Shown: positions 41,429 through 64,000 of the stretch, piece by piece
How positions within the stretch are numbered: the stretch's first letter is position 1
How the letters are laid out: the number at the start of each line of letters is the position of its first letter
NCBI RefSeq assembly: GCF_004134825.1
Contig: NZ_SDPN01000014.1
Span: 1-64,000 of the forward strand
Source: Agromyces albus
GTDB taxonomy: Bacteria > Actinomycetota > Actinomycetes > Actinomycetales > Microbacteriaceae
Direction: 5' to 3'
DNA: 64,000 nt
Program-made: the position numbers and the translations under genes
Notes under the pieces: generated by a model
Databases searched by the model: none
The model's input: only the letters and a program-made list of their open reading frames with translations
Told to the model about the DNA's origin: nothing

Positions 41429-41437
41429 GCTGGAGGG

Positions 41438-45806: not shown

Positions 45807-45891
45807 GGCGTACTCCTCTCGATCCTCTCTAGGTATAGACGATCAAGCTGGGCATTCCCTTCCCGCGGGCTGATGGATTGCCGGGGAATTC

Positions 45892-46647: not shown

Positions 46648-46655
46648 GCGCGACG

Positions 46656-47588: not shown

Positions 47589-47621
47589 GGTGAACTCCTC
47601 TGCGGTTGAACGAACGAGGCT

Positions 47622-48092: not shown

Positions 48093-48150
48093 CGATCGCC
48101 CCTTCGACATCCTGTGTGCTGAACCTATCACCGGAGCTCCGGCGGGACGC

Positions 48151-48627: not shown

Positions 48628-48760
48628 TTGCCCTCCTTCGCACCCGCCACCATTCCGAAACTAGCAGGGCGGAGAGGCGACCGGGGGAGTTGATAGTCTC
48701 GGTTCGGCGTCCTGCCCGCGGACCGACGGTCCCAATTCCGAAGCTTCGAGGAGTCGACTC

Positions 48761-49528
48761 GTGACCAACCCACTCGCCCCCGATTCGCTCACCGGGCGCG
48801 TCGCCCTCGTGACGGGTTCGTCGCGCGGCATCGGCGCCGACACGGTGCGCTACCTCGCCGGCGCAGGTGCCGCCGTCGTCGTCAACTTCCGCAACAAGGA
48901 GGCCAGGGCAGCGAAGCTCGTCGACGAGATCGTCGCTGCCGGTGGCCGGGCGATCGCGGTGGGTGCCGACCTGACGGATCCCGCATCCGTCGCCGCGATG
49001 TTCGAGCGCACGGTAGCCGAGCTCGGCCCCATCGACATCCTCGTCTTGAATGCCTCCGGCGGCATGGAGTCCGGCATGGGGGAGGACTACGCGATGCGCC
49101 TCAACCGCGACGCGCAGGTGAACGTCGTCGACGGAGCACTCCCGCACCTCGCCGACGGTGCACGCATCGTGTTCGTGACGAGCCACCAGGCGCACTTCAT
49201 CCGCACGACGCCGACGATGCCCGAGTACGAGCCGGTCGCGTTGTCGAAGCGTGCCGGTGAAGACGCGCTGCGGGAGAAGATCCCCGCCCTCGAGGCGGCC
49301 GGCTTCGATTTCGTGGTCGTCTCAGGCGACATGATCGAGGGCACGATCACCGCGACCCTGCTCGAGCGAGCCAATCCCGGTGCGATCGAGGCTCGCAAGC
49401 AAGACGCGGGTCGTCTCTTCAACGTGTCGGAGTTCGCCGCCGAAGTGGCGTCCGCCGCAGTGGAGCCGGTACCGGCCGAGCACACGCGCTACGTGGGGGA
49501 CACCTCGGGGTTCAACCGCGAAGTGTGA
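48761..49528 (+). CDS. Atypical SDR family oxidoreductase
   Basis: This 255-aa protein has the SDR cofactor motif TGSSRGIG (residues 18-25), ADLTD and LVLNASGG (NAG-like). The active site is unusual. Where classical SDRs have YxxxK, this protein reads VALSK (159-163), with a Tyr three residues earlier (Y156), and the Ser is in VTSHQ (S141). It may be a non-classical reductase or have moved the Tyr. GTG 48761 is about 60 nt downstream of TAGTCT (near 48692). Substrate unknown. Confidence 0.8.
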   Translation: MTNPLAPDSLTGRVALVTGSSRGIGADTVRYLAGAGAAVVVNFRNKEARAAKLVDEIVAAGGRAIAVGADLTDPASVAAMFERTVAELGPIDILVLNASGGMESGMGEDYAMRLNRDAQVNVVDGALPHLADGARIVFVTSHQAHFIRTTPTMPEYEPVALSKRAGEDALREKIPALEAAGFDFVVVSGDMIEGTITATLLERANPGAIEARKQDAGRLFNVSEFAAEVASAAVEPVPAEHTRYVGDTSGFNREV

Positions 49529-49539
49529 CCCGCTGACGC

Positions 49540-49575
49540 GATGAGGCGGGCCCGGAGCATCCGGCCGGCCTCATC
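49540..49575. terminator. Bidirectional terminator-like hairpin
   Basis: GATGAGGC (49540-49547) pairs with GCCTCATC (49568-49575) around a GC-rich loop, between the convergent ends of the SDR gene (49528) and the HdeD-like gene (49591). Confidence 0.55.
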
Positions 49576-49590
49576 GTCGTTCGCTGAGCG

Positions 49591-50199
49591 TCACACCGTC
49601 GCCGGGGCCCCGCGACCGAATGTGAACGCACGCACGAGCTGCATGATGCCGAGCACGATGAGGCTGATGCCGGCGATGATGAACAGCACGATCGCAGCCC
49701 AGAGCGGCGAGAAGAGCAACACGATTCCGGCGAGGATGCTGAGGATGCCGAAGAAGATCGCCCAGCCCCTCGACGGGGCATCACCGAGCTGCGCGAGGGC
49801 GACGACGCCTTCGACGATCCACAGGACGCCGATGAGCACGCCGATGAAGACCGCGAGGAAGACGGCGGTCGCCGCGAGGTTGGCGAAGGCGAGGATGCCG
49901 CCGACGATGAACAGGATGCCGAGGATGACATCCAAGGCCCTCGCGCCGCCGGACATGCCTCTCGAGAAGATGCCGAGACCCGCGTAGGCGATGCCGGCGA
50001 TCACGAGGTAGATCGCGAGCATCACCGTGAGCACCACCGCGGAGTCCTTCGGCCAGAACGTGATCAGGATGCCGATGATGAGCGCCGTGGCGCCGGTGAT
50101 GCCGAGCGTCATGCGCACGGTGTTGATGGCGGGCTTCGACAAGCCCGAGGCGTCGAGGGAGAACGAGGCGAACATCGCGTTGGGCTGCGGAGCAGACAT
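49591..50199 (-). CDS. HdeD/DUF308 family membrane protein
   Basis: This 202-aa protein has about six membrane helices in three hairpins, with repeats of GIxxILxGIxxxxxP: LGITGATALIIGILITFWPKDSAVVLTVMLAIYLVIAGIAYAGLG, LDVILGILFIVGGILAFANL, FFGILSILAGIVLLFSPLWAAIVLFIIAGISLIVLGIMQLVRA. It fits the HdeD/DUF308 family, associated in enterobacteria with acid resistance, but the role in actinobacteria is unknown. AAAGGA precedes ATG 50199. The 147-bp region upstream has an AT-richer TATATC stretch (minus strand) that may be its promoter. Confidence 0.85.
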   Translation of the reverse strand: MSAPQPNAMFASFSLDASGLSKPAINTVRMTLGITGATALIIGILITFWPKDSAVVLTVMLAIYLVIAGIAYAGLGIFSRGMSGGARALDVILGILFIVGGILAFANLAATAVFLAVFIGVLIGVLWIVEGVVALAQLGDAPSRGWAIFFGILSILAGIVLLFSPLWAAIVLFIIAGISLIVLGIMQLVRAFTFGRGAPATV

Positions 50200-50346
50200 G
50201 GAGTGTCCTTTCTGGCAACGACATGGACGTGCGGGATCAGGGTATTCCTCACCATCGGCCGAGTGTCGGATATATGTGCCCGAATCCCGCCGCGTGTCGA
50301 CCGGGGGAGCGGACTCGGACCGCTCGGCATCAGGGCGAACGCTGGA

Positions 50347-50748
50347 TCATCGCACCACGGCGGCGACCGCGCTGATCTCGACGAGCGCGCCGGGCACGCC
50401 GAGCCCGGCGACACGCGCCGCGGTCACCAGGGCCGGTTCATCGGACGCGAGCTCGGAAGCGATCGCCCCGTAGCCCGCCGCGAGGTCGACGCCGTCGACG
50501 AAGAGCACCGTCCACTGCACGACGTCTCCGAGGGTGGCACCGGCCGCAGCCAGCGCCGTCTTCGCATTCCCCAGGGCGCGGGCAGACTGCACGGCCACGT
50601 CGCCCTCGCCGACGATCGAGCCGTCGGCGTCGACGGCGTTCTGGCCGCCGACATAGATGGTGGTCGCGCCTGGCGGCACGATGGCCACGTGGCTGAAGGC
50701 AGGACTCGAGACGAGCCCTTCAGGACGGATGCGCTGGATGGCTGCCAT
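50347..50748 (-). CDS. RidA (YjgF) family protein
   Basis: This 133-aa protein matches the Rid family: VSSPAFSHVAIVPPGATTIYVGGQNAVDADGSIVGEGDVAVQSARALGNAKTALAAAGATLGDVVQWTVLFVDGVDL and VPGALVEISAVAAV. The Arg that marks active imine deaminases of the RidA subgroup (near the TRxxV position) is not clear, so a Rid2-7 type is possible. It may remove reactive imines or enamines. ATG 50748 was chosen over an in-frame upstream start that lacks family sequence. Confidence 0.82.
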   Translation of the reverse strand: MAAIQRIRPEGLVSSPAFSHVAIVPPGATTIYVGGQNAVDADGSIVGEGDVAVQSARALGNAKTALAAAGATLGDVVQWTVLFVDGVDLAAGYGAIASELASDEPALVTAARVAGLGVPGALVEISAVAAVVR

Positions 50749-50810
50749 GCCGGTACGATCGCACAGACCACCGACACCGGGGCGGCCCCACCCCGCGTAC
50801 ACTGACTCGC

Positions 50811-51782
50811 ATGTCGAGACGGCCGACCAGCATGAGGGCCGTCGTCTATGAGCGGTACGGCTTACCCGACCAGCTGAGGGTCGAGGAGGTTCCCGTGCCG
50901 TCGCCGGGCGCGAAGCAGGTGCTCATCGAGGTCGTCGCGACATCCGTCAATCTCTCGGACTGGGAAAGTCTGACCGGAAGCCCGGCATACGCGCGCATCG
51001 GCGGTCTGCGAACCCCCTCGCATCGAGTGCTCGGTTCGGACATCGCCGGGCGCGTCGCAGCCGTCGGCTCGGACGTCACCGGTTTCGTGGTCGGTGACGA
51101 GGTGTACGGCGACAACCTGGGCCTCATGGGCGGTTTCGCCGAGTACGCGGTGGCACCTGCGGCGGCGCTCGCTCGCAAGCCCCCTGAGTTGACGTTCGCC
51201 GAGGCCTCGGCGCTGCCCCAAGCCGCTGCGATCGCACTGCAGGGCACCGCCCGCTCACGCCCTGGGCTCCGCGTGCTGATCAACGGGGCCGGAGGCGGTG
51301 CCGGCTCATTCGCGATCCAGCTCGCCTCGCGCTCCGGGGCGCACGTGACCGGCGTCGACAACGCGGGCAAGCTGGATTTCATGCGAGAGCTCGGCGCCGA
51401 CGAGGTGGTCGACTATCGAAATCAGGACTTCACCAGGCTCGAGCCGTACGACCTCGTGCTCGATCTGGTCGCCCACCGATCCGTGTTCGCCTACCGGCGG
51501 GCGTTGGCTCGCGGCGGCCGCTATCTCTGCGTCGGCGGGCCTGTTCGAGCACTGCTGCGGGTCGTGACGGTCGGGGCGGCGATCGGCGTGCTCACCGGAC
51601 GCCGGTTGGGGGTCCTCGTTGCGAGGCAGGGGCCGAAGCACTTCGAACCCGTCGCTGAGCGGTGCGTCGCCGGCGATCTTCGCGTCCACATCGATCGCGT
51701 CTTCCCGCTCGAAGAGGTGCCGCAAGCGCTCACACATGTCGGTGAGGGGCGCGCACTCGGCAAGGTGGTCGTCACGCCATAG
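50811..51782 (+). CDS. NAD(P)-dependent alcohol dehydrogenase / quinone oxidoreductase-like MDR
   Basis: This 323-aa medium-chain reductase has MRAVVYERYGLPDQLRVEEVPVPSPGAKQVLIEVVATSVNLSDW at the N-terminus, GSDIAGRVAAVGSDVTGFVVGDEVYG, and the Rossmann motif INGAGGGAGSFAIQLA. The zinc ligands of classical alcohol dehydrogenases are absent, so it is of the quinone-oxidoreductase type. Substrate unknown. ATG 50811 follows TACACT (50798-50803) by 7 nt. MRAVVY could also start at 50832. Confidence 0.85.
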   Translation: MSRRPTSMRAVVYERYGLPDQLRVEEVPVPSPGAKQVLIEVVATSVNLSDWESLTGSPAYARIGGLRTPSHRVLGSDIAGRVAAVGSDVTGFVVGDEVYGDNLGLMGGFAEYAVAPAAALARKPPELTFAEASALPQAAAIALQGTARSRPGLRVLINGAGGGAGSFAIQLASRSGAHVTGVDNAGKLDFMRELGADEVVDYRNQDFTRLEPYDLVLDLVAHRSVFAYRRALARGGRYLCVGGPVRALLRVVTVGAAIGVLTGRRLGVLVARQGPKHFEPVAERCVAGDLRVHIDRVFPLEEVPQALTHVGEGRALGKVVVTP

Positions 51783-51814
51783 GGCCCCCTCGAGTTCGTC
51801 GGCTCAACACAGGT

Positions 51815-52456
51815 TCAATTGCTGATGGCGGGTGCGCGATTGAGGTAGGTGTCGTCGCTGACCTGTGATGCGGTGAACGCGGCGATGTCCGCGCGGCTGA
51901 CGGCGGCTCCGATCTTGTCGGTCCCGAAGAACCCGGCGCGCACCCGCCCGGTCTTGGGGGTGTTCTTCGGCGCGGTGAAGCGGATGATGGTCCAATCGAT
52001 GCCGGAGGCCATGATCTGGTCGATCATGCCGACCAGTTCCCGGGAGGCGCGAGGCAGGAACATGCTGCCCAGGAACTTCGTCATCCTGGTCTGGGCGGTC
52101 GGTTTCTCCTGTGGGTCGAGGATGCTCGGGGTGGCGTGGCCGATGTACCTCTTCACGCCATGCCGTGTCATCGAGTCGAGGATGTGCCGAGTTCCTTCGA
52201 CCAGCGGCAGGCCCTGTGCCTTCCTGCTGAGGTCGGGGCCGAGCGCGCTGACGACGACATCGGCACCGTCGATCGCGGAGTGGATGGCCGCCCGGTCGGA
52301 GATCTCGCCGACGACAACGCGGACGTCGTCTCCCCAACCGGAGGGGACCTTCTTCCGGTTGCGTGCGTCCGCGGTGACGGTGTGGCCTTGGGTGAGCAGC
52401 TCGTTCACGGTGAGCGCGCCGATCGCGCCGGTGGCGCCGAAGACAGTGATGTTCAT
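51815..52456 (-). CDS. NAD(P)H-binding atypical SDR, NmrA-like
   Basis: This 213-aa protein has the atypical SDR motif FGATGAIGALTVNELL (GATGxxG), NRKKVP and the WTIIRFTAPKNTPKTG stretch of NAD(P)-binding 10 proteins. It lacks YxxxK. It may act as a redox sensor or reductase. It lies 34 nt downstream of the adjacent MDR gene on the same strand, and both are likely controlled by the divergent TetR regulator. Confidence 0.85.
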   Translation of the reverse strand: MNITVFGATGAIGALTVNELLTQGHTVTADARNRKKVPSGWGDDVRVVVGEISDRAAIHSAIDGADVVVSALGPDLSRKAQGLPLVEGTRHILDSMTRHGVKRYIGHATPSILDPQEKPTAQTRMTKFLGSMFLPRASRELVGMIDQIMASGIDWTIIRFTAPKNTPKTGRVRAGFFGTDKIGAAVSRADIAAFTASQVSDDTYLNRAPAISN

Positions 52457-52490
52457 GGAATTGTTCGTTCCTCTGAGATGAAGGTCGGTG

Positions 52491-53426
52491 TCAGTCGATG
52501 GTGACGACGAGCTTGCCGAGCGTGCCGGCGGTGAAGTGCCGGAAAGCTTCGCTGGTCTTGTCGAGGTCGTAGACGCGCTGCACCGTCACCGTGGTGTGGC
52601 CCTTCACCTGGTTCGCTGCCAGGCGGTCGAGTGTCTCCTGTGACGGATTGGCGTAGATGGGCACCACGCGCACACCGTCGGCCGGGATCTGGTCGGGGCT
52701 CTGCACCAGCGTCGAGACCAGCACGCCCGCTTGCCTGACCGCGCCGGCCAGCGCCGACCCGTCACCCGCGAAGTGGAGCACGACGTCCACGCCGCCCGGG
52801 TACGCCTCGCGGATCTGTGCCGCGACGTCATCGGTGTAGTCGACGATGCGGGTTGCGCCCAGCTTCCCGACGAGCTCGATCTCCTCCGCGGTGTGCGCTG
52901 TGGCGATCACCTCGGCGCCGGCACGGACGGCGAGCTGGAGAGCCTGCTGTCCCACGCCACCCGTCGCGCCCGCGACCAGCACGGTGCTGTCCGCGCCGAT
53001 CCCAGCAGCGTTGAACGAGTCGAACGCGGCAGTGCCGGCAAGCCCCAAGCCCGCAGCATCCGTGAAGTCGATCTCCTCAGGCAGCTTCGCGATTCCGACG
53101 GCTACCGGCACGGTCACGTACTCGGCGAACGAGCCGTCGCCGAGGAACTGCTTGGTCACGACGCCGAAGACGCGGTCACCGACCTGGAAGCCCACGACCT
53201 CGGGCCCGACGGCATCGACGGTGCCTGCGAAGTCCTTTCCGAGCACGACAGGGAAGCGGTGCTCCATGGCGCCGTTGAGATAGCCGTTGGCGACGGCCAG
53301 GTCGAAGCCGTTCACAGACGCGGCGCGAACGCGGACTCGGACCTCGCCTGAAGCCGGTTCCGGCATATCCAGTTCGGTCACCGCAGGTGCCTGGTCGAAC
53401 GCACCGAATGCGACTGCCTTCATCAT
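52491..53426 (-). CDS. NADP-dependent zeta-crystallin-like quinone oxidoreductase
   Basis: This 311-aa MDR has MKAVAFGAFDQAPAVTELDMPEPASGEVRVRVRAASVNGFDLAVANG, LGKDFAGTVDAVGPEVVGFQVGDRVFG and VAGATGGVGQQALQLAVRAGAEVIATA (cofactor site). It has no zinc ligands. It should reduce quinones or other carbonyls with NADPH. AAGGAA precedes the double ATG (53426, 53423). The divergent TetR gene and its two operator-like repeats (53466-53515) lie in the 107-bp gap upstream. Confidence 0.88.
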   Translation of the reverse strand: MMKAVAFGAFDQAPAVTELDMPEPASGEVRVRVRAASVNGFDLAVANGYLNGAMEHRFPVVLGKDFAGTVDAVGPEVVGFQVGDRVFGVVTKQFLGDGSFAEYVTVPVAVGIAKLPEEIDFTDAAGLGLAGTAAFDSFNAAGIGADSTVLVAGATGGVGQQALQLAVRAGAEVIATAHTAEEIELVGKLGATRIVDYTDDVAAQIREAYPGGVDVVLHFAGDGSALAGAVRQAGVLVSTLVQSPDQIPADGVRVVPIYANPSQETLDRLAANQVKGHTTVTVQRVYDLDKTSEAFRHFTAGTLGKLVVTID

Positions 53427-53465
53427 TGATTCCTTCTTTCGATTGGGCTGACCCCGCCGCCTTAG

Positions 53466-53481
53466 TGGAGCGGGTGTTCCA
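53466..53481. promoter_or_regulatory. Probable TetR operator, copy 1
   Basis: TGGAGCGGGTGTTCCA is an imperfect 16-bp palindrome (TGGA...TCCA arms). It shares 13 of 16 positions with copy 2 at 53500-53515, and both face the same way. It lies 39 bp from the oxidoreductase start. Confidence 0.75.
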
Positions 53482-53499
53482 TTTAGGTGAACCACAATA

Positions 53500-53515
53500 T
53501 GGAGCAGATATTCCA
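53500..53515. promoter_or_regulatory. Probable TetR operator, copy 2
   Basis: TGGAGCAGATATTCCA matches copy 1 closely and lies 34 bp from it (start to start), just upstream of TAGAAT (53522-53527), the likely -10 of the tetR gene. Binding here would block the tetR promoter; binding at copy 1 would block the oxidoreductase promoter. Confidence 0.75.
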
Positions 53516-53533
53516 ATTCGGTAGAATCTGTTC

Positions 53534-54169
53534 ATGACGAGCTCCGAGCGGCCACTGCGCGCTGATGCCGAGCGCAATCGGCAGGCGATCCTCGGCGCAG
53601 CCGGGTCCGTGTTCGCTGAGAAGGGCACCCAGGTCACGTTGGAACACATCGCCGAGGTCGCCGGCGTGGGCGTGGGCACGATCTACCGGCGGTTTCCTTC
53701 GATCGATGACCTGGTCAGCGTCGTGCTCGAGGAGAAGATGAGGCGCTACGCCGATCGCACCGAGCAGGAGGCGGAACGAGCGCTCACCCAGCCGTGGCCG
53801 GCGTTTCATGACTATGTGCTGTTCATCCTCGAGCAGCAGGCCACCGATCTGGCCTTCAGCGACGTGATCCTGTCGCCGCGCACCGGTACCGAGCTGTTTC
53901 GGCAGGAGATCAAGCGGGCCTTGCAGGCCTCGATAGTGTTGATCGACCGGGTGAAAGCTGCCGGCGAGCTCCGAACGGACTTCGATCACAGCGACCTCTA
54001 CCTACTGCTGCACGCCAATGCCGGCCTGGTACGTGGCACTCACCGCTCGGCGCCAGAGGCGTGGAAGCGGTTCGGGCAGTACATGCTGAAGTCGTTCCGA
54101 CATCCTGGCGACGAGCCGTTGACTGCACCCTCGGTGGTCTGGATGCGAGCCAAGAACTCGGGCGTTTAG
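53534..54169 (+). CDS. TetR/AcrR family transcriptional regulator
   Basis: This 211-aa protein has a TetR DNA-binding domain (LRADAERNRQAILGAAGSVFAEKGTQVTLEHIAEVAGVGVGTIYRRFPSIDDLVSVVLEEK) and a helical ligand domain. ATG 53534 lies 6 nt after TAGAAT (53522-53527), giving a leaderless start. It is divergent from two redox genes and very likely represses them and itself through the paired TGGAGC...TTCCA sites. The inducer is unknown; a quinone or electrophile is plausible from the target genes. Confidence 0.92.
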   Translation: MTSSERPLRADAERNRQAILGAAGSVFAEKGTQVTLEHIAEVAGVGVGTIYRRFPSIDDLVSVVLEEKMRRYADRTEQEAERALTQPWPAFHDYVLFILEQQATDLAFSDVILSPRTGTELFRQEIKRALQASIVLIDRVKAAGELRTDFDHSDLYLLLHANAGLVRGTHRSAPEAWKRFGQYMLKSFRHPGDEPLTAPSVVWMRAKNSGV

Positions 54170-54364
54170 CCGCCGTCACGAGGTGTTCGCCGAGCTCGAA
54201 TGCGACGTCTTCTGTGGACATTCGTGGTGAGGGGACCTGATAGGGCCTCTCAGTCGCCGACCGTTCTGGCGTTGGATGGTTCGGGGTCGACGCGATCTTG
54301 CGTCGCCCAGCATCTACGCGGCAATCGGCCGCGGATGCCGGAACGACATCGAGGAGTCACACGC
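54170..54364. other. 195-bp gap between tetR and the zinc alcohol dehydrogenase
   Basis: No complete gene. On the minus strand from 54221, the frame MSTEDVAFELGEHLVTAAK reads like the start of a protein but breaks down near the tetR stop, so it may be a gene remnant. The plus strand holds a small hairpin (CGACGC-GATCTT-GCGTCG, 54288-54305). GAGGAG at about 54350 is the ribosome-binding site of the next gene. Confidence 0.3.
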
Positions 54365-55384
54365 ATGCGTGGAGTAGTGATGTACAGCGCGGGCGACGTC
54401 CGGGTCGAGGAACGCGAGGATCCGCGGATCGTCGAGCCCACTGACGCGATCGTTCGCCTGACGGCGACGTGCGTCTGCGGTTCGGACCTCTGGCCGTACC
54501 GCGGCATCGAGCCGGCTGACCATCAGGTGATGGGTCACGAGTACGTCGGTGTGGTCGAGGAGATCGGCGCGGACGTGAAGAACGTGAAGGTCGGCGACTT
54601 CGTCGTCGGGTCCTTCGTGATCTCGGACAACACGTGCGAGATCTGCCGGTCGGGTTTCCAGTCCAAGTGCGTGCACGCGTCATTCGTCTCGCAGATCGGA
54701 ACGCAAGCCGAGAAGGCTCGCATTCCATTGGCGGATGGCACGCTGGTTGCCACGCCCGGGCAGCCCGAGCCCGAGCTGATCCCGTCGCTGCTGGCGGCAT
54801 CCGATGTGCTCGGCACCGGATGGTTCGCCGCGGTCGCCGCCCAGGCTGGCCCAGGAAAGTCGGTCGCGGTCGTCGGTGACGGCGCGGTCGGTCTGATGGC
54901 GATCCTCGCCGCCAAGCAGCTTGGCGCCGAGAGGATCATCGCGATGTCCCGTCATCCGGAGCGGCAGGCCCTCGCCCGGTTCTATGGAGCGACCGACATC
55001 GTCGAAGAGCGCGGCGACGCCGGCGTGGCGAAGATCAAGGAGCTCACCGACGGGATGGGCGCGCACTCCGTCGTCGAGGCGGTCGGCACCCAGGAGTCGT
55101 TCATGCAGGCGGTCGGCTCCACCCGCGGCGGCGGGCACCTGGGATACGTCGGCGTGAACTATGACGTGAAGGTTCCCGGCATCGAGCTGTTCTTCGCGGG
55201 AATCCACACCCTCGGCGGTCCCGCGCCGGTCCGGCGCTTCCTGCCCGACCTGATCCAGCTGATCTGGGACCGGAAGATCGACCCGGGCAAGGTGTTCGAC
55301 CTCACCCTCCCGCTCGAGGAGGCAGCCGAGGGCTACAAGGCCATGGACGAGCGACGCGCCACCAAGGTCCTCCTCACCCTCTGA
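54365..55384 (+). CDS. Zinc-dependent alcohol dehydrogenase family protein
   Basis: This 339-aa medium-chain dehydrogenase has the catalytic zinc site (TCVCGSDLWPYRG with Cys, GHEYVGVVEEIG with His/Glu) and part of a structural zinc loop: TCEICRSGFQSKC has three of the usual four cysteines, as in several related YdjJ-like proteins. The cofactor motif is VVGDGAVGLMAILAAK. The N-terminus MRGVVMYSAGDVRVEEREDP fits this family. It should oxidise or reduce an alcohol/aldehyde; substrate unknown. Only GAGGAG upstream supports ATG 54365; no -10 was clear. Confidence 0.87.
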   Translation: MRGVVMYSAGDVRVEEREDPRIVEPTDAIVRLTATCVCGSDLWPYRGIEPADHQVMGHEYVGVVEEIGADVKNVKVGDFVVGSFVISDNTCEICRSGFQSKCVHASFVSQIGTQAEKARIPLADGTLVATPGQPEPELIPSLLAASDVLGTGWFAAVAAQAGPGKSVAVVGDGAVGLMAILAAKQLGAERIIAMSRHPERQALARFYGATDIVEERGDAGVAKIKELTDGMGAHSVVEAVGTQESFMQAVGSTRGGGHLGYVGVNYDVKVPGIELFFAGIHTLGGPAPVRRFLPDLIQLIWDRKIDPGKVFDLTLPLEEAAEGYKAMDERRATKVLLTL

Positions 55385-55395
55385 TCCCAGCAGCT

Positions 55396-55444
55396 GGTCG
55401 AGAGGGTGGGGGAGACGTCCCCACAGCCTCCCACCCTCTCGACC
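55396..55444. terminator. 15-bp-stem hairpin after the alcohol dehydrogenase
   Basis: GGTCGAGAGGGTGGG (55396-55410) pairs perfectly with 55430-55444 around a 19-nt loop, starting 12 nt after the stop. It is probably a terminator. Because it ends 9 nt before TACGGT (55453-55458), the likely -10 of the next gene, it could also be an operator of that regulator. Confidence 0.7.
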
Positions 55445-55465
55445 GCCCGACGTACGGTGGAAGCT

Positions 55466-56395
55466 ATGAACACGAACGACGATGTGCGGGAGTTCCTGAT
55501 GTCCCGCCGGGCGAACGTGACACCGGAACAAGCGGGCCTTCCCGACTTCGGCGGAGAACGCCGCGTTGCCGGACTGCGTCGTGAAGAGGTCGCGATGCTC
55601 GCCGGCGTCAGCCTCGACTACTACACCCGTCTCGAGCGCGGCAAGATTCACGGAGCATCCGAGAGCGTCCTCAACGCCATCGCGACCGCGCTGCACCTCG
55701 ACGACGTCGAGCGCGCCCACCTGTTCGATCTTGCCCGCGCGGTCCCACCGACGCCCGCGACGCGCCGCCCACCGACATCCCCGCGAACCATTCGTCCGTC
55801 GGTGCAACGAGTTCTCGACCACATGGCCGTCCCAGCCGTGGTCTACAACGCCCGCCAGGATCTCGTCGCGTCCAACCTGCTCGGGCGCGCGCTCTTCGCG
55901 CCCCACTTCGAGGCCGATCCGCCCAACAACGCGCGCTTCATCTTCCTCGACTCGCGGGCACGCGATTACTACGATGATTGGCCCCTCGCGTGCAGCCTCA
56001 CCGCGGCGATGCTCCGCTACGAGGCCGGCCGCGACCCGCTCAACAGCGACCTGACGGCACTGATCGGCGAACTCTCCACCCGCAGCCCGCAGTTCCGGAA
56101 GAACTGGGCGGAGCAGGATGTCCACGAACACCGCACCGGGACGAAGATCTACCGCCATCCCGCCATCGGACCGCTCGAACTCCACTACGACGTCTTCGAG
56201 ATGCCCGGAGAACCAGGCCTCTCAATCGGCACCTATACCGCGGAAGCCGGAACCGCCGCAGCTGATGGGCTCACACTCTTGGCGACATGGGCGACAACGC
56301 AGGAATTCGCTCGGAGCCAGCGTCTCGGTGGGGGAGACGCGAGCTCCGAGTCGTCGACGGAGACCGCGGCTGCGCCTCGGACGAGCTCCACGTAG
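55466..56395 (+). CDS. XRE family regulator with MmyB-like ligand domain
   Basis: This 309-aa protein has an N-terminal helix-turn-helix (DVREFLMSRRANVTPEQAGLPDFGGERRVAGLRREEVAMLAGVSLDYYTRLERGKIHGASESVLNAIATALHL) and a PAS-like MmyB domain (RPSVQRVLDHMAVPAVVYNARQDLVASNLLGRALFAPHF... LELHYDVFEMPGEPGLSIGTYTAEAG). MmyB-type regulators bind fatty-acid-like ligands. They usually control a neighbouring dehydrogenase or reductase; the zinc alcohol dehydrogenase just upstream is a candidate target. The last 30 residues are Ser/Thr-rich and may be an odd added tail. ATG 55466 follows TACGGT by 7 nt. Confidence 0.87.
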   Translation: MNTNDDVREFLMSRRANVTPEQAGLPDFGGERRVAGLRREEVAMLAGVSLDYYTRLERGKIHGASESVLNAIATALHLDDVERAHLFDLARAVPPTPATRRPPTSPRTIRPSVQRVLDHMAVPAVVYNARQDLVASNLLGRALFAPHFEADPPNNARFIFLDSRARDYYDDWPLACSLTAAMLRYEAGRDPLNSDLTALIGELSTRSPQFRKNWAEQDVHEHRTGTKIYRHPAIGPLELHYDVFEMPGEPGLSIGTYTAEAGTAAADGLTLLATWATTQEFARSQRLGGGDASSESSTETAAAPRTSST

Positions 56396-56499
56396 CCGGA
56401 AGCCGCGAGCTCCCAGTGCGGGGGACCGCGCGTGTGCGCGACCTTGTCTCGGATGACGACGGCCACCATGTTGTCAGCCGCTGATGCTTGGATGAGCGC
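56396..56499. other. 104-bp gap before the pentapeptide gene
   Basis: No complete gene. On the minus strand, an open stretch starting at 56469 (MVAVVIRDKVAHTRGPPHWELAASGYVELVRG) reads protein-like but continues into the tail of the XRE gene, where it loses that character. It may be a decayed gene end; the evidence is composition only. Confidence 0.25.
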
Positions 56500-57117
56500 A
56501 TGTCAGAACGACGTGACGGTGCACCTTCTTCTGAGACCTCGACGGTCAGCGACGAGGATTGGTACGCCCGCGAGTTCGACGGTGCGAAGTTCTCCGACGT
56601 GCGATTCGTCGACATCGACCTCACTGAGGCATCGAGTTCCGGCGCGACCTTCACCAACTGCGCCTTCGTCAACGTGAAGTTCAACGTCTCCACCCACGAA
56701 TCCACCGCGTTCGTGAACTGCACGTTCCACAGCTGCAACTTCTTCGACGCGACCTTCACCGGCTGCAAGCTCGTCGGCTGCGTCTTCGACAGCTGCGACT
56801 TCAGCATCCTGAAGGTCCATGGCGGCGACTGGTCGTTTACGGGATTCCGCCGCGCCGCGCTCGAGGGCGTCGAGTTCACAGGAGTTCGACTCCGCGAGGC
56901 GGACCTCACGAACGCGCGATGCTCCCGCTCGACCTTCGCCGGCTGTGACTTCTCGGGTTCCGTGTTGCACGGCGCTGACTTCACTGACGCCGATCTGCGT
57001 GGGAGCACCCTCGGTGAGATCGACCCGCTCACGGTGACGCTTCGGGGTGCCTCGGTAACTGGCGTGCAGGCTGCTGAGATCGTCCGTGGGCTCGGGCTCA
57101 TCGTCGTAGACGTTTAG
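56500..57117 (+). CDS. Pentapeptide repeat protein
   Basis: This 205-aa protein is mostly pentapeptide repeats of the A(D/N)LxX or xF/LxX kind: FDGAKFSDVRFVDIDLTEASSSGATFTNCAFVNVKF ... FVNCTFHSCNFFDATFTGCKLVGCVFDSCDFS ... LEGVEFTGVRLREADLTNARCSRSTFAGCDFSGSVLHGADFTDADLRGSTL. Such proteins fold as a right-handed quadrilateral beta helix; some (MfpA, Qnr) mimic DNA and bind gyrase, but most are uncharacterised. The stop codon TAG (57115-57117) lies inside the dif-like site. ATG 56500 has no clear ribosome-binding site; TTG 56488 is an alternative. Confidence 0.88.
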   Translation: MSERRDGAPSSETSTVSDEDWYAREFDGAKFSDVRFVDIDLTEASSSGATFTNCAFVNVKFNVSTHESTAFVNCTFHSCNFFDATFTGCKLVGCVFDSCDFSILKVHGGDWSFTGFRRAALEGVEFTGVRLREADLTNARCSRSTFAGCDFSGSVLHGADFTDADLRGSTLGEIDPLTVTLRGASVTGVQAAEIVRGLGLIVVDV

Positions 57118-57141
57118 CCGATAATGCACATTATGTCCGTT
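57114..57141. other. Candidate dif / Xer recombination site
   Basis: The 28 bp divide into an 11-bp left arm TTAGCCGATAA (57114-57124), a 6-bp centre TGCACA (57125-57130) and an 11-bp right arm TTATGTCCGTT (57131-57141). This fits XerC-arm / centre / XerD-arm architecture, with the palindromic core ATAATG-CA-CATTAT. From memory, 24 of 28 positions agree with the actinobacterial dif consensus; the differences are at the third base and in the outer right arm. It is the most AT-rich short stretch here. It may be the chromosomal dif site, where XerC/XerD resolve dimers at the terminus, or an element's Xer target. Confidence 0.7.
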
Positions 57142-57181
57142 TGGGGAAAACAGGCCAGCTACAGCGTCTCCCCCTGCCCCC

Positions 57182-57250
57182 GGCGGACCAACGATGACGG
57201 TCATCGATCCCTTCGGCAACGAGCTTCGATTCTGCGAGCCCGCCGACTGA
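57182..57250 (+). pseudogene. C-terminal remnant of a VOC/glyoxalase gene
   Basis: From 57182 the frame reads GGPTMTVIDPFGNELRFCEPAD and stops at 57248-57250. The last 18 residues match the end of VOC-superfamily proteins of the bleomycin-resistance/glyoxalase type (V/I-DPFGN-x-L-RFCE). Nothing N-terminal to this belongs to such a protein: 41 bp further upstream is the dif-like site. So the gene has lost its front part, possibly through recombination at that site. Confidence 0.6.
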
Positions 57251-57288
57251 CGCGGTGACCAGGTGGTGGGCTCAATTGCTTCACCCAA

Positions 57289-57304
57289 AGTGCTTGCAAG
57301 CACT
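57289..57304. promoter_or_regulatory. Perfect 16-bp palindrome upstream of the MBL gene
   Basis: AGTGCTTGCAAGCACT is exactly self-complementary and lies 56 bp upstream of the MBL-fold start, near a TACGGT (57317-57322) that could be a -10. A second inverted repeat (GGTCTC...GAGACC, 57320-57342) follows. It looks like an operator for a dimeric regulator; no regulator gene is adjacent. Confidence 0.65.
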
Positions 57305-57360
57305 ACCGCCGGCCAATACGGTCTCGACAAGCGGTTGAGACCACAAGCGGAAGGCAGTTC

Positions 57361-58182
57361 ATGCTCAAGCAAGTCGTTGAGGGCGTTCTCGTTCACGAGA
57401 GCGAGTTCCTCCAGAGTAATTCCGTTGTCGTGCAGGGCCGGCACGGTGTGTTACTCATCGACCCCGGCATTACAGGCGACGAGCTGGCGGCCCTCGCGAA
57501 CGATCTTCGCGAGCTGGGCCAGCCTGTCGTGGCAGGCTTCTCCACGCACCCTGATTGGGACCACGTGCTCTGGCACGCGAACTTCGGCGACGTGCCCCGT
57601 TACGGCACGGCCCGCTGCGCGGCCTCTCTCCAGGATCTGCTGTCGAACGCGGACTGGAGGGACCGCATAGCCCCGGGGCTCCCGCCGGAGTACGCCGAGG
57701 AGATCCCGATGGAGCTGCTGGGTCTCATCACCGGTCTGCCCGCCGAGGCTGCGCAGATCCCTTGGGATGGCCCCGAAGTCCGGATCATCGAGCATCAGGC
57801 CCATGCCCCAGGCCACGCGGCGCTGTTGATCGAGGAGCGCGGCGTCCTCGTCGCCGGCGACATGCTTTCTGACATCCTGATGCCGTTCCTCGATCTCGAG
57901 GCCGCGAATCCGATGGAGGACTACCTCGCCGCGCTGCGGCTGTTCGAGAGTGTGGCCGACGACGTTGTTGCCGTCATCCCCGGTCACGGTTCAGTCGGTG
58001 GAGCTGAGCAGCTACGAGCTCGAATCGAACAGGATCGCGCGTACGTGCAGGACCTGCGAGACGGACGTGTTCCCGACGACCCGCGGGTCGGTCCATCGGC
58101 ATCGTTGGATTGGCTGCCAGACGTGCACAGATGGCAACTCCAGCGGCTCGCCCAAAGAGAGCAGAACGAGACGCCCGCTTAA
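57361..58182 (+). CDS. Metallo-beta-lactamase fold hydrolase
   Basis: This 273-aa protein has the MBL metal motifs: STHPDWDH (His63, Asp65, Asp67, His68; the middle His of HxHxDH is replaced by Asp65), GHAALLI (His152), VAGDML (Asp167) and PGHG (His209). The N-terminus VEGVLVHESEFLQSNSVVVQGRHGVLLIDPGI is typical of small thiolesterase- or glyoxalase II-like members. Substrate unknown. ATG 57361 is preceded by GGAAGG. The Asp65 change could alter the zinc site. Confidence 0.85.
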   Translation: MLKQVVEGVLVHESEFLQSNSVVVQGRHGVLLIDPGITGDELAALANDLRELGQPVVAGFSTHPDWDHVLWHANFGDVPRYGTARCAASLQDLLSNADWRDRIAPGLPPEYAEEIPMELLGLITGLPAEAAQIPWDGPEVRIIEHQAHAPGHAALLIEERGVLVAGDMLSDILMPFLDLEAANPMEDYLAALRLFESVADDVVAVIPGHGSVGGAEQLRARIEQDRAYVQDLRDGRVPDDPRVGPSASLDWLPDVHRWQLQRLAQREQNETPA

Positions 58183-58249
58183 CGGTCTCCCCCAACTGCA
58201 GCGCTGTCCGACCACCGCAGCGATCGACCGGCTCGGTAGCATGCAACGC

Positions 58250-58687
58250 ATGGCCATCAAACTCGAGAACGTCGGCATCGCCGTTCGCGACCTCGAAGCA
58301 GCGATCTCCTTCTTCACCGACCTCGGTCTCACGGTCGTCGGCCGTGACACGGTCAGCGGTGAGTGGACCGACACCGCCGTCGGCCTCGATGGCAACCACG
58401 CCAAGATTGCGATGCTCCAGACGCCAGACGGTCACGGTCGCCTTGAACTCTTCGAGTACATCCACCCGGAGGCGATCGAGTCGGAGCCCACTCGTCCCAA
58501 CGAGATCGGCATGCACCGCGTTGCCTTCTCAGTCGACGACATCGACGAAGCCCTTGAGGTAGCCGCGAGGCACGGATTCCGACCGCTCCGCGGCGTGGCG
58601 ACCTATGAAGACGTCTACAAGCTCACGTACCTCCGCGGTCCTAGCGGCATCCTCGTGATGCTCGCCGAGGAGCTGAAGAAGAGCTGA
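58250..58687 (+). CDS. VOC family (glyoxalase/bleomycin resistance-like) protein
   Basis: This 145-aa protein has two beta-alpha-beta-beta-beta halves: MAIKLENVGIAVRDLEAAISFFTDLGLTVVGRDTV and MHRVAFSVDDIDEALEVAARHGFRPLRGVATYEDVYKLTYLRGPSGILVMLAEE. VOC proteins include glyoxalases, dioxygenases and resistance proteins; a specific role cannot be assigned. ATG 58250 lies 7 nt after TAGCAT (58237-58242), so it is probably leaderless; the much longer upstream frame overlaps the MBL gene and is a shadow. Confidence 0.82.
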   Translation: MAIKLENVGIAVRDLEAAISFFTDLGLTVVGRDTVSGEWTDTAVGLDGNHAKIAMLQTPDGHGRLELFEYIHPEAIESEPTRPNEIGMHRVAFSVDDIDEALEVAARHGFRPLRGVATYEDVYKLTYLRGPSGILVMLAEELKKS

Positions 58688-58764
58688 CGGCCGATCAGAG
58701 CTCACGTCGCTGGTGGAGAACGCCTGACACCACTCCCCCGATTCTCGTGCGCTCGGCGCTCGAC

Positions 58765-58784
58765 AGGTAACCATATGGTTGCCT
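58765..58784. promoter_or_regulatory. Operator-like palindrome upstream of arsR
   Basis: AACCATATGGTT (58769-58780) is a perfect 12-bp palindrome; with its flanks it extends to 20 bp with one mismatched pair (AGG...CCT ends). It lies directly upstream of TATAGT (58784-58789), the likely -10, and so between -35 and -10. ArsR-type repressors typically bind such sites in their own promoters. Confidence 0.7.
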
Positions 58785-58795
58785 ATAGTGGTTCT

Positions 58796-59107
58796 GTGGA
58801 TCCGGTGTTCAAAGCACTTTCCGACCCGACGAGGCGAATCCTCGTCGAGGAGCTCGCCGAGCGCGATGAGCAGACGCTCTTCGAACTGTGCGTACGACTC
58901 ATGTCGCGGCATGGCCTCGAGGTCTCACGACAGGCCGTCGCGAAGCACCTCGACGTGCTCGAGCAGGCCGGGCTCGTGACGATCCGACGCGAGGGCAAGT
59001 ACCGCCTCCACTCCCTCGACCGCGCACCGCTGCGCGCCACGTGGGACGAGTGGTTCCGGCCACTCGTGACATCCGACGATCACCAGACCGACCGACAACA
59101 GGAGTGA
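58796..59107 (+). CDS. ArsR-type winged-helix regulator
   Basis: This 103-aa protein has the ArsR winged helix: VDPVFKALSDPTRRILVEELAERDEQTLFELCVRLMSRHGLEVSRQAVAKHLDVLEQAGLVTIRREGKYRLHSLDRAPLRATWDEWF. It lacks the metal-binding CxC of metal sensors, so it probably responds to another signal; this type is often paired with a SRPBCC or VOC gene, here the VOC gene 2 nt downstream. GTG 58796 is 6 nt after TATAGT, a near-consensus -10, and the operator-like palindrome lies just upstream, so it should repress itself and the VOC gene. Confidence 0.9.
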   Translation: MDPVFKALSDPTRRILVEELAERDEQTLFELCVRLMSRHGLEVSRQAVAKHLDVLEQAGLVTIRREGKYRLHSLDRAPLRATWDEWFRPLVTSDDHQTDRQQE

Positions 59108-59109
59108 CC

Positions 59110-59502
59110 ATGCGCATCAACCTCACGAGCGTGCTCGTCGACGACCAGGCGAAAGCCCTCGACTTCTACACCGACGTGCTCGGGTTCGAGAAGAAGACCG
59201 ACTTCGCGGCGGGCGAGGCCCGCTGGCTCACCGTCGTCTCCCCCGACGATCCCGACGGCGTCGAGCTCGTGCTCGAGCCCGACGAGCACCCGGCGGCACG
59301 GCCGTTCAAGCAGGCGCTCGTCGCCGACGGCATCCCGTACACCTCGTTCGCGGTCGACGACGTCGAGAAGGAGCACGCGCGGCTCGTCGCCGCCGGCGTC
59401 GAGTTCACCCAGCCGCCGACCGCGATGGGTCCCATGACGACCGCGGTGTTCGACGACACGTGCGGCAACCTCATCCAGATCGCGAGCATGGCCACCTCCT
59501 GA
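59110..59502 (+). CDS. VOC family protein, operon partner of arsR
   Basis: This 130-aa protein has the VOC fold: MRINLTSVLVDDQAKALDFYTDVLGFEKKTDFAAGEARWLTVVSPDDPDGVELVLEPDEHPAARPFKQALVADGIPYTSFAVDDVEKEHARLVAAGVEFTQPPTAMGPMTTAVFDDTCGNLIQIA. His and Glu metal ligands of glyoxalase I are not all present, so catalysis is uncertain. GGAG lies before ATG 59110, within the end of arsR, so the two genes are coupled. It may bind or detoxify a small molecule sensed by the regulator. Confidence 0.87.
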   Translation: MRINLTSVLVDDQAKALDFYTDVLGFEKKTDFAAGEARWLTVVSPDDPDGVELVLEPDEHPAARPFKQALVADGIPYTSFAVDDVEKEHARLVAAGVEFTQPPTAMGPMTTAVFDDTCGNLIQIASMATS

Positions 59503-59555
59503 CGAGACGGAAGACGACGGTGTGCCCTCGTGTCTATCGCCCCTAGGGTGGAGCG

Positions 59556-59852
59556 ATGATCCGTCACACCGTCGCGTTCCGTCTGCGTCACCCCACGGGC
59601 TCCGAAGCAGAACGATCCTTCCTCGAGACCGCCAGGGTGCTCGCCGGCATTCCGGGTGTCGAACGATTCGAACAGCTCCATCAGGTGAGCGCGAAGAACG
59701 ACTTCACGTTCGGATTCTCGATGGAGTTCTCCGATGCCGCCGCCTATGCGGCGTACAACGAGCATCCCGATCATGTCGCGTTCGTCGCAGAACGATGGGT
59801 GCCCGAGGTCGAGGAGTTCCTCGAGATCGACTACGCGCCATACGTCGCGTAG
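59556..59852 (+). CDS. Dabb family (stress-responsive A/B barrel) protein
   Basis: This 98-aa protein has the Dabb pattern: MIRHTVAFRLRHPTGSEAERSFLETARVLAGIPGVERFEQLHQVSAKNDFTFGFSMEFSDAAAYAAYNEHPDHVAFVAERWVPEVEEFLEIDY. These small ferredoxin-like dimers include stress proteins and polyketide cyclases; function here is unknown. ATG 59556 follows TAGGGT (59544-59549) by 6 nt. Confidence 0.87.
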   Translation: MIRHTVAFRLRHPTGSEAERSFLETARVLAGIPGVERFEQLHQVSAKNDFTFGFSMEFSDAAAYAAYNEHPDHVAFVAERWVPEVEEFLEIDYAPYVA

Positions 59853-59880
59853 CCCGGCCACTCCCCCGGCGACTCGCGAC

Positions 59881-60210
59881 TCAGCGCGGCTCGCCGCGCT
59901 CTTCGTATCGCTCGAGGCGCCGTCCGGTCGCGGGCATGCCGAGCTCGTTGAGCGGTCGTGCGGTATCGCGCTCGGGAATCCGCTCATCGGTCGGACACGT
60001 CATCACGGTGTTGGGCGTGGAGTGATCGAACGAGTGCTCGAACATCGGGTGTCCGCACAACGGACACCTCTGCTCATCGAGCGAACGTTCCTCTGGTTCG
60101 CTCTCGGTGATCGGTGGCGGACCGAACATCGGGAGGAGCGCTCGATCCACTCTCTCGAAGAAGTGCGTGAACGCGTTGCCCTCGGGGCGGCTCGCCGTGT
60201 CGCGTGCCAT
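59881..60210 (-). CDS. Small zinc-ribbon-like protein of unknown function
   Basis: This 109-aa protein has a probable metal site: QRCPLCGHPMFEHSFDHSTPNTVMTCPTDE (CxxCxH then HxxxH and a further Cys). The N-terminus is ALL/FFERVDRALLPMFGPP-like. I do not recognise a family with known function. The start at ATG 60210 has minus-strand TAGCAT at 60217-60222, 6 nt away, so it is probably leaderless, which supports a real gene. It converges with the Dabb gene and is divergent from the SDR gene. Confidence 0.65.
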   Translation of the reverse strand: MARDTASRPEGNAFTHFFERVDRALLPMFGPPPITESEPEERSLDEQRCPLCGHPMFEHSFDHSTPNTVMTCPTDERIPERDTARPLNELGMPATGRRLERYEERGEPR

Positions 60211-60277
60211 GGCACGATGCTACGCCCGTACCGCGTGTTCCCGCCAGAGGCGACTGTCGGCACCTAGGCTTGCCGGC

Positions 60278-61042
60278 ATGGAAACGGATGCCTCGTCACG
60301 GCCGGTCACGATCGTCACGGGAGCGAGCCGCGGCATCGGTGCGGCGATCGCCGAGCGACTTGCCGCCGACGGACACGACCTCGTGCTGACGTTCCGGGAC
60401 AGGGTGGCGGATGCCGATGCCGTGGCACGCCGGTGCGAGGCATCCGGTGCCCGCGTACGCTTCCTGCAGGTCGACCTCGCCGACCTCGACGCGGCCGCGA
60501 CGATCGTGCCGACGGCGATCGCCGAATTCGCAACGATCACCGGGCTCGTCAACAACGCCGGGATCACGGGCCGGATCGGCGGATTCCTCGACGCCTCCAT
60601 TGAGGAGTCCGAGCTCCTGTTCCGCGTGAACGTGCTCGCGCCGATCGTCCTCACGCGCGCTGCGATCGCGCACATGGCGACGGATCGCGGCGGCGCCGGC
60701 GGCTCGATCGTGAACATCTCCTCGGGCGCAGCGACGACGGGTTCGCCGAACACCTACATCCCCTACTCGATGAGCAAGGCCGCGCTCAACGCGCTCACGA
60801 CGGGCACGGCGAAGGAGTTCGGCCCGGTCGGCGTGCGGGTCAACACCGTGTCGCCCGGCACCACTCGCACCGAGATCCATGCGGCCGCGGGTCGCCCCAA
60901 CGCGCCCGAGGAACGCGCCCCGCGCATTCCGATGCGCCGACCCGGCGAGCCCCACGAGATCGCGGGAGCCGTCGCGTACCTCTTCTCTCCCGACGCGTCC
61001 TACACGTCGGGCGCCGACATCCGTGTGGCGGGCGGCAACTAG
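60278..61042 (+). CDS. SDR family oxidoreductase
   Basis: This 254-aa classical SDR has TGASRGIG (residues 14-21), NNAG (92-95), Ser149 (NISSG), Tyr163 and Lys167 (YSMSK). The C-terminal AVAYLFSPDASYTSGADIRVAGGN fits the FabG/sugar dehydrogenase group. Substrate is unknown. ATG 60278 follows TAGGCT (60265-60270) by 7 nt, so it is probably leaderless. The downstream dhaM gene converges with it across 13 nt. Confidence 0.87.
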   Translation: METDASSRPVTIVTGASRGIGAAIAERLAADGHDLVLTFRDRVADADAVARRCEASGARVRFLQVDLADLDAAATIVPTAIAEFATITGLVNNAGITGRIGGFLDASIEESELLFRVNVLAPIVLTRAAIAHMATDRGGAGGSIVNISSGAATTGSPNTYIPYSMSKAALNALTTGTAKEFGPVGVRVNTVSPGTTRTEIHAAAGRPNAPEERAPRIPMRRPGEPHEIAGAVAYLFSPDASYTSGADIRVAGGN

Positions 61043-61055
61043 AGGGCAACGCCCG

Positions 61056-61784
61056 TCACGCCTCGCCGAAGCCGGACTCGGCGAGTTCGGCGATGGCGTC
61101 GACCGCTTCGCGCCCGTCGGGATCGGTACTCGCGATCTCGACGACAGCTCCCTTCGTCAGGCCGAGCGACATGATGCCGAGCAGGCTCTTCGCATCCGTG
61201 CCGTTCACGGTGATCTTCTGCGTGAACCCGCTCGCGAGCTTCACGAGCTCCGCGGCGGGACGCGCATGCAGGCCGTCGGCGTTCACGAGCGTGATCGAGC
61301 GGGAGTAGCCGGAGCCGGATGCCGCGGCGGCGTCGGTGGTCGCGGCATCCGTGCCGACCGTTGCCTCGGCCGCCGCGCCGACCGGTTCTGCTCCCGCACG
61401 AGCGGATTCCGCGGCCGCGACGACCGCATCGAGCCCATCGCCCGACTCCGCGGACACCGCGGCAGCGACGCCGCCTTCGACGAGAGGGGCGTCGACGATG
61501 CGAACTCGTTCCCGCACCTCGTCATCGAGGAAGTCGAGGGCGGTCTCGGCCGTGAGGATCGCGGAGCCGAGGTCGCAGAGCACCGCGACGCCCTCGCCGG
61601 CATCGGCGTGGGCGATCGCCGACGACACGAGGTCGAAGCTCGTGCCGATCCGGCCGTCGTCGGTGCCACCTGCAGCGGCGAGCGTCGCCGTCGGCGCCAT
61701 CTGGCGAGCGAGATCGACGAGGCCTGCGGCGATCTGCTGGGAGTGCGACACGAATACGACGCCGACCTTCCCGGCCGTCGCCAC
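61056..61784 (-). CDS. dhaM: DhaM-HPr, phosphoryl donor for dihydroxyacetone kinase
   Basis: This 242-aa protein fuses two PTS domains. Residues 1-125 are an EIIA-Man-like DhaM domain (GVVFVSHSQQIAAGLVDLA, active His14). After an Ala-rich linker (about 130-158) comes an HPr domain (SRSITLVNADGLHARPAAELVKLASGFTQKITVNG, active His173, KSLLGIMSLG). Phosphate should pass from enzyme I to HPr to DhaM and on to DhaL. The enzyme I domain of the E. coli protein is absent, so enzyme I must come from elsewhere. GTG 61784 fits the DhaM start; GTG 61793 would overlap dhaL by 8 nt. Confidence 0.9.
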   Translation of the reverse strand: MATAGKVGVVFVSHSQQIAAGLVDLARQMAPTATLAAAGGTDDGRIGTSFDLVSSAIAHADAGEGVAVLCDLGSAILTAETALDFLDDEVRERVRIVDAPLVEGGVAAAVSAESGDGLDAVVAAAESARAGAEPVGAAAEATVGTDAATTDAAAASGSGYSRSITLVNADGLHARPAAELVKLASGFTQKITVNGTDAKSLLGIMSLGLTKGAVVEIASTDPDGREAVDAIAELAESGFGEA

Positions 61785-61785
61785 G

Positions 61786-62433
61786 TCAGGCACCTGCCGA
61801 CGCCGCCGCTGCGTCGGCCGCCGCCTGCAGGAGAAGGGCGCTCGATTCGGCGCCCGGGTCGCGATGTCCGGCGGAGCGCTCGCCGAGGTAGCTCGCGCGC
61901 CCCTTGCGCGCCACGAGCGGTTCCGTCGCCGCGGCACCCTCCCACGCGGCACTCGCCGCGGCCTGGAGGGCGCCGAGGGCATCCGCCCCGTCGGCTGCCG
62001 CGGCCGTGGCGGCGTCGACGGCGGGCGTCCACGCGTCGACCATCGTCTTGTCGCCGGGTTCGGCCTTGCCTCGCAAGACGATTCCGTCGCGGGCCGCCGT
62101 GAGGATACCCGCGATCGCCTCAGCGTCGAGTGACACCGAATCGCCTGCAGCAACCGCGGCCTTCAGGTACGCGGTGCCGTAGAGCGGCCCTGCCGCACCG
62201 CCGACGGTCGAGATGAGCGTCGTCGCGACGAGCTTGAGCACGTCGCCCGGGGTCGACCCGGCATGCAGGTCGTCGAGTTTCGGGAGCACCGCCTGGAAGC
62301 CGCGGTCCATGTTCTCGCCGTGGTCTCCGTCGCCGATCTCGCGATCCAGCGTGATCAGCTCGATTCGGTGGTCCGATACGACCTGCGCGCTCCGCCTGAC
62401 CCAGTCCACCGCCCAGGTGATATCCAATCCCAC
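61786..62433 (-). CDS. dhaL: Dihydroxyacetone kinase nucleotide-binding subunit DhaL
   Basis: This 215-aa protein has the DhaL fold: WAVDWVRRSAQVVSDHRIELITLDREIGDGDHGENMDRGFQAVLPKLDD, in which Asp30, Asp35 and Asp37 hold Mg-ADP, and GGAAGPLYGTAYLKAAVAAGDS. In the PTS-type system DhaL keeps ADP bound and is rephosphorylated by DhaM. AAGGGGG precedes GTG 62433. It lies between dhaK (14 nt gap) and dhaM in one operon. Confidence 0.92.
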   Translation of the reverse strand: MGLDITWAVDWVRRSAQVVSDHRIELITLDREIGDGDHGENMDRGFQAVLPKLDDLHAGSTPGDVLKLVATTLISTVGGAAGPLYGTAYLKAAVAAGDSVSLDAEAIAGILTAARDGIVLRGKAEPGDKTMVDAWTPAVDAATAAAADGADALGALQAAASAAWEGAAATEPLVARKGRASYLGERSAGHRDPGAESSALLLQAAADAAAASAGA

Positions 62434-62447
62434 CGACGTGCCCCCTT

Positions 62448-63455
<1,008 letters not shown>

Positions 63456-63669
63456 CCCTTCCCCTCGGCTGCCGGACGCCGTGCGACCTGTGCATCGGCG
63501 CCGACGCAGCACTCTCGGCAAACCTACGCCCGCGGAGAGCCCGGCCGTAAGAGGCGGAGGGAAATCTCCGGCGCGCCCTTTCCGGGGGACGCTCCGTCTG
63601 AGTATCGTGGGCTCTGTTCCGCCCCTGGGCGAAGCCCCTCGGGCTCGGCGAAAAGGATGGAAGGTCAAC
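63456..63669. promoter_or_regulatory. Divergent dhaK / glycerol facilitator control region
   Basis: The 214-bp gap has a minus-strand TAGGTT (63519-63524), a possible dhaK -10 with a leader of about 60 nt, and a plus-strand TATCGT (63602-63607), a possible -10 for the facilitator with a leader of about 55 nt. No regulator gene is adjacent and I recognise no operator. Confidence 0.4.
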
Positions 63670-64000
63670 GTGGACAGTCTCGGAGTGTTGTTCCTCAGCG
63701 AGCTCATCGGCACCGCGATGCTCGTGCTTCTCGGTTGCGGTGTGGTGGCGAACGTCGCGCTCGTCAAGAACAAGGGCTTCGGCGGCGGCTTCCTGATGGT
63801 GAACTTCGGATGGGGCCTCGCGGTCTTCGCCGGTGTCACCGTTGCCCTGGCATCGGGCGCCCACCTCAACCCCGCGGTCACGCTCGGACTCGTGGCCAAT
63901 CGCACTGAAGAGTTCGGCAATCCCGATTTCGGCACCGTCCCGGTCGGGTTCCTCTCGGTGATCGCCTACATCGGGGCCCAGCTCATCGGTGCGATCATCG
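63670..64000 (+). CDS. glpF: MIP family glycerol facilitator / aquaporin (partial)
   Basis: The gene runs off the right edge; 110 codons are seen. The N-terminus [75 protein letters not shown] has the first two membrane helices and the first NPA box (Asn67-Ala69) of MIP channels. The Asn/Gly-rich loop and the position next to dhaKLM favour a glycerol facilitator over a water channel; this is inference. GTG 63670 has GGAAGG just upstream. Confidence 0.85.

Follow-up and report, generated by a model that had tools for sequence, protein, structure and literature searches.

A dif-like Xer site of Agromyces albus, almost certainly that of the chromosome, lies where the strand bias of GGGGGAG reverses

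The analogy with FtsK and XerCD used below is based on portions of a review of characterised Xer systems (PMC5357621). The E. coli dif/KOPS/FtsK system resembles the locus analysed here in its working, with an XerCD site placed where polar motifs converge; the motifs themselves differ, the E. coli-type KOPS being GGGNAGGG (from an excerpt of PMC13342612) and the putative FtsK motif here being GGGGGAG. In Corynebacterium, an actinobacterial genus of a different family, the architecture-imparting sequences G(A/T/C)GGGGGA and (T/C)GGGGGAG were used to locate the dif of Corynebacterium aurimucosum, and an excerpt of that report (PMC2830990) describes the same motif as found here with the same reversal at dif. 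The motif was recovered here independently, before the comparison with that report. The dif sequence of Frankia alni has also been published; as given in an extract of PMC3025954, it shares with our site the 11-6-11 layout and an identical 20-base core, CCGATAATGCACATTATGTC, in the same register, and differs from it at 6/28 positions, all of them outer arm bases. Because the motifs had already served to locate the C. aurimucosum dif, the site and the motifs that point to it are alike of a type described before, and the locus is a further instance of a well-known element.

The DNA analysed (the window) comprises 64,000 nucleotides, bases 1-64000 of contig C18 in an assembly of 4,291,429 bases (4.29 Mb) and 111 contigs. 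A dif-like 28-mer, TTAGCCGATAATGCACATTATGTCCGTT, lies on its + strand and consists, in order, of TTAGCCGATAA, the centre TGCACA and TTATGTCCGTT. The original prediction had proposed a 28-bp site with an 11-6-11 layout at 57114-57141, and its position proved exact. The left arm is presumably the XerC side, by analogy with E. coli dif, and we take the right arm, by the same analogy, to be the XerD side. The features at the site are:

57114..57141, + strand: almost certainly the chromosomal dif site, TTAGCCGATAATGCACATTATGTCCGTT, from its sequence, copy number, relatives, position and motif polarity
57114..57124, + strand: left 11-bp arm, whose outer bases differ between relatives
57125..57130, + strand: 6-bp central region TGCACA, the commonest centre in the genus listing
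57131..57141, + strand: right 11-bp arm; TTATGTC is the same in all aligned sites (35 from the genus and 23 others from the family), a set itself chosen by core match
56488..57117, + strand: pentapeptide-repeat protein gene (209 aa), with its last 4 bases lying within the outer arm of dif

A search of the genome for the 28-mer and its near matches, which had been suggested as a check, found a single place within 3 mismatches in the whole 4.29-Mb assembly. The core CGATAATGNNCATTATGT, at up to 3 mismatches, has one match in the window, with 0 mismatches. Across the assembly the 18-base core occurs at seven places with up to 3 mismatches, the next best having 2 mismatches, and a reversed control pattern at two. 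Contig C35 carries a sequence that differs from the 20-base core at 3 positions. An Rfam scan of 44-64 kb at gathering scores gave no match.

The core was found in all 60 genomes searched in the genus Agromyces, in 59 with 0 mismatches and in one (G349) with 1. Among the 299 family genomes sampled, it was detected at up to 1 mismatch in 246 and was absent at that threshold from 53. We aligned the 35 genus sites that have 3-kb loci. No variation was seen at positions 5-13 and 16-24 of the 28-mer, which is due in part to the choice of sites by core match; bases 14-15 of the centre vary, as do the outer bases of the arms. The original prediction had put the match to the actinobacterial dif consensus at 24 of 28 bases. 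That number depends on the reference: it holds against the consensus of the 35 genus sites (24/28), and does not hold against the consensus of 23 other family sites (23/28) or the F. alni dif as given in the extract of PMC3025954 (22/28). When the 3-kb locus was compared with 29 other loci, blastn gave no match, and tblastx gave self-matches only, among the matches listed.

The distance between dif and dnaA was computed in 21 single-contig relatives of the genus. The site lies at 0.473-0.533 of genome length from dnaA in all 21, with a mean deviation from the antipode of dnaA of 0.012, where random placement would give 0.25. Relative to dnaA, dif is on the opposite strand in 18/21 and on the same strand in 3 (G303, G305, G336). 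The window-matching flanks of G305 and G336 are oriented to dif as they are in the window itself, and a large symmetric inversion is therefore likely in these two genomes, rather than a flip of dif alone.

A GC-skew switch, which had also been proposed as a test, was not visible at the site. The skew is weak and noisy, with no clear switch in the window or in the relative G300. In 20-kb bins of G300, the skew is positive in the eight to the left of dif (0.011 to 0.032) and of mixed sign to its right (-0.022 to 0.042); over the 200 kb on either side of dif, the cumulative skew peaks at the far edge, 199.9 kb away. Since GC skew fails to mark the terminus clearly, strand-biased octamers were sought in G300, a single-contig relative, using 20 stretches of 20 kb (400 kb) away from dif and requiring at least 25 occurrences. 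The most biased octamer was CGGGGGAG, with 35 leading and 3 lagging copies. In the 400 kb centred on the G300 dif it is found 35 times forward and once reverse on the left, and 0 and 34 times on the right. When the top 15 octamers were tested singly in G300, CGGGGGAG and the overlapping GCGGGGGA switched clearly at dif, and the other 13 showed no clear switch there. Summed counts of the top 30 skewed octamers were also tried as a terminus marker and rejected, their cumulative maximum lying 75.5 kb from dif.

The original prediction had likewise asked about the polarity of KOPS-like motifs, and here a sharp strand switch was seen. In the 94,071 bases of the contig, GGGGGAG is present 20 times forward and 0 times reverse left of dif, and 0 times forward and 14 times reverse on the right. 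Among the 2808 7-mers that occur 20 times or more (counting both orientations, i.e. 1404 complement pairs), it is the most polarised and the sole one without exception. The two sides are:

1386..56336, + strand: left side of the terminus, with 20 GGGGGAG on the + strand and 0 on the - strand, the last starting at 56330
57168..64000, - strand: right side of the terminus, with GGGGGAG on the - strand only, 5 within the window and the first at 57168

The right-side count of 14/14 spans 57168-94071 of the contig. The last forward copy starts at 56330 and the first reverse copy at 57168, and the site falls inside the 838 bp between these two starts. The corynebacterial motifs G(A/T/C)GGGGGA and (T/C)GGGGGAG, in the form given in the excerpt of PMC2830990, are found in the same contig 24/0 on the left and 0/13 on the right. 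Our literature search returned no relevant paper joining GGGGGAG with FtsK.

The original prediction had left two alternatives, the chromosomal dif marking the replication terminus or an Xer site used by a mobile element. The first is supported because the site is single-copy, present genus-wide, opposite dnaA in the closed relatives and placed at the GGGGGAG switch. We conclude that the 28-mer at 57114-57141 is almost certainly the chromosomal dif of this Agromyces.

The genome has two strong Xer-type recombinase genes. The protein encoded at C31:9474-10346 passes the XerD model (339.1 bits, cut-off 329.6). For the XerC model the best protein, C19:91420-92349, scores 303.2 bits, above its XerD-model score of 255.7 bits. 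No protein in the genome exceeds the curated XerC cut-off of 335.15, a threshold passed by just 2/14 control genomes. An FtsK gamma domain (PF09397) is encoded at C52:29759-29935 (81.2 bits, cut-off 30.6).

The surroundings of dif were compared between our contig and the dif regions of eight relatives. In G313, G305, G218 and G336 the left match stops at about 50.2 kb and the right match begins at 59.9-61.1 kb. For G324 the right match starts from 59.9 kb, with no left match within the stretch compared, and G331 gave one short match only. Of the close relatives, G300 matches to 51.9 kb, again around the pentapeptide gene, and then from 57.2 kb; G343 matches to 51.8 kb and at the pentapeptide gene. 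From these flank matches it follows that dif is enclosed by a pocket of genes, about 8.6-12 kb long, with species-dependent content:

50200..59900, no strand assigned: variable pocket around dif, from the flank matches of G313, G305, G218 and G336

The pocket encodes an L-PSP-type protein, zinc-binding dehydrogenases, an NAD(P)-binding NmrA-like protein, TetR-type and MmyB-like regulators, a metallo-beta-lactamase-fold protein, a glyoxalase-fold protein and an ArsR-like regulator, which by their sequences look like accessory enzymes and regulators. A plasmid similarity search with 55-59.5 kb gave partial matches in 129 records, none covering 80%.

The right flanks of our genome and of G343 part at the edge of dif, and the flank matches end at similar places in four relatives. 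Both observations would fit a pocket built up as circular elements were repeatedly captured and lost by Xer recombination at a site that is nonetheless dif, with the pentapeptide gene as a relic. We consider this unlikely: no second core match (up to 3 mismatches) was found near the pocket in our genome, G300 or G343, the left match of G343 ends at 57106, 8 bp short of the 28-mer, and the break in G300 falls within the pentapeptide gene, outside the crossover region. Terminus regions also vary for other reasons.

The divergence of the G343 flank at dif, together with the variable content of the pocket between relatives, could also be read as the mark of an inserted integrative element (IMEX), the 28-mer being its accessory Xer site and the true dif lying elsewhere. 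This is very improbable. The switch of motif polarity at the site speaks strongly against it, as do the lack of any second sequence in the assembly that matches the 28-mer with up to 3 mismatches and the position near the dnaA antipode in all 21 single-contig relatives. Moreover, no second site flanking an insertion was found nearby: searches for the 28-mer across the assembly and for the core on its own contig, each at up to 3 mismatches, revealed no insertion with dif-like sites at both ends, and no second core match within 3 mismatches lies near dif in our genome, G300 or G343. The mobile-element alternative of the original prediction was thus not borne out. That the 28-mer is a chance palindrome-like sequence has a negligible probability and is excluded by the presence of the core in 60/60 genus genomes, and shuffled windows gave a mean of 0.05 matches (5/100 shuffles with a match) even for the weaker version of the pattern, the core CGATAATGNNCATTATGT at up to 3 mismatches.

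The overlap of the site with the pentapeptide gene looks incidental, that of a chance neighbour, and the sequences give no reason to tie the function of the gene to dif. The 28-mer does include the stop codon of this gene, as had been noted originally, with the TAG at 57115-57117, and the 4-base overlap falls in the variable outer arm. Matches to the pentapeptide protein at E ≤ 1e-10 were obtained in 5/60 genus genomes, our own counted, with no match at this threshold in 55/60. In G343, the gene (87% identical) ends about 400 bp before dif. The G300 copy is decayed: it contains stop codons and has lost its second half, in a gap with one end next to dif. A distant match in G313, with 29% identity, is separated from dif by about 2.1 kb, and in G329 the match (31%) and dif are on different contigs.

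Dif-like sequences were also observed elsewhere. On C35, positions 137024-137043 carry CCGAGAATGTTGGTTATGTC, in which one arm base is mismatched and the centre diverges; genes for an HTH protein and a HEPN_Swt1-domain protein lie close by, as does a pentapeptide match of 39% identity (C35:137703-137951). Judged from its sequence, the dif-like stretch is possibly an accessory Xer site; 0.11-0.26 arm matches as good as this one are expected by chance in the genome. The single-contig Agromyces chromosome of G324 has a second dif-like site (G324:C1:2781275-2781294), with 1 core mismatch and a changed centre, beside a RES-domain gene and between two inverted insertion sequence copies with identical transposase ORFs. 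In G313, a dif-like site with 2 mismatches (G313:C2:39156-39175) lies on an 83.6-kb contig, possibly a conjugative plasmid, which has a gene for a TraG/TraD-like coupling protein as well. Multiple core matches at up to 1 mismatch occur in at least 9/299 family genomes (G023, G041, G051, G099, G104, G259, G265, G284, G287). In the seven genomes for which places are listed, the extra matches have changed centres; five of these genomes have them on a different contig, and two (G051, G265) on the same one. A scan of viral contigs for the arms with any centre gave at least 120 stretches, with a TGNNCA centre in 3 of the 80 listed. Our literature search found no actinobacterial pdif/Xer paper, the match concerning Acinetobacter, and nothing on dif sites or Xer of Microbacteriaceae plasmids. 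We tentatively raise the idea, which we hold to be rather doubtful, that Agromyces and its family carry accessory Xer sites, with dif-like arms and a divergent centre, on plasmids and islands, the sites of C35, G324 and G313 being the candidates; these would be an actinobacterial counterpart of pdif, letting elements use the host XerCD, and the dif pocket may partly result from them.

By analogy with established Xer/FtsK knowledge, the 28-mer would be recombined by XerCD, and GGGGGAG would most likely be read by FtsK. The FtsK translocase would draw a dimer of replicated sister chromosomes through the septum as it closes, and polarised motifs (most likely GGGGGAG in this genome) would steer the translocase towards dif. 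At dif, FtsK would activate XerD, and XerC and XerD would exchange strands around the TGCACA centre, resolving the dimer into two chromosomes.

The site places the replication terminus on this contig. The polarity of the motif suggests the direction of replication, with the + strand leading left of 57.1 kb and the - strand leading to the right. Finally, where GC skew fails, GGGGGAG polarity places dif to within about 0.8 kb.
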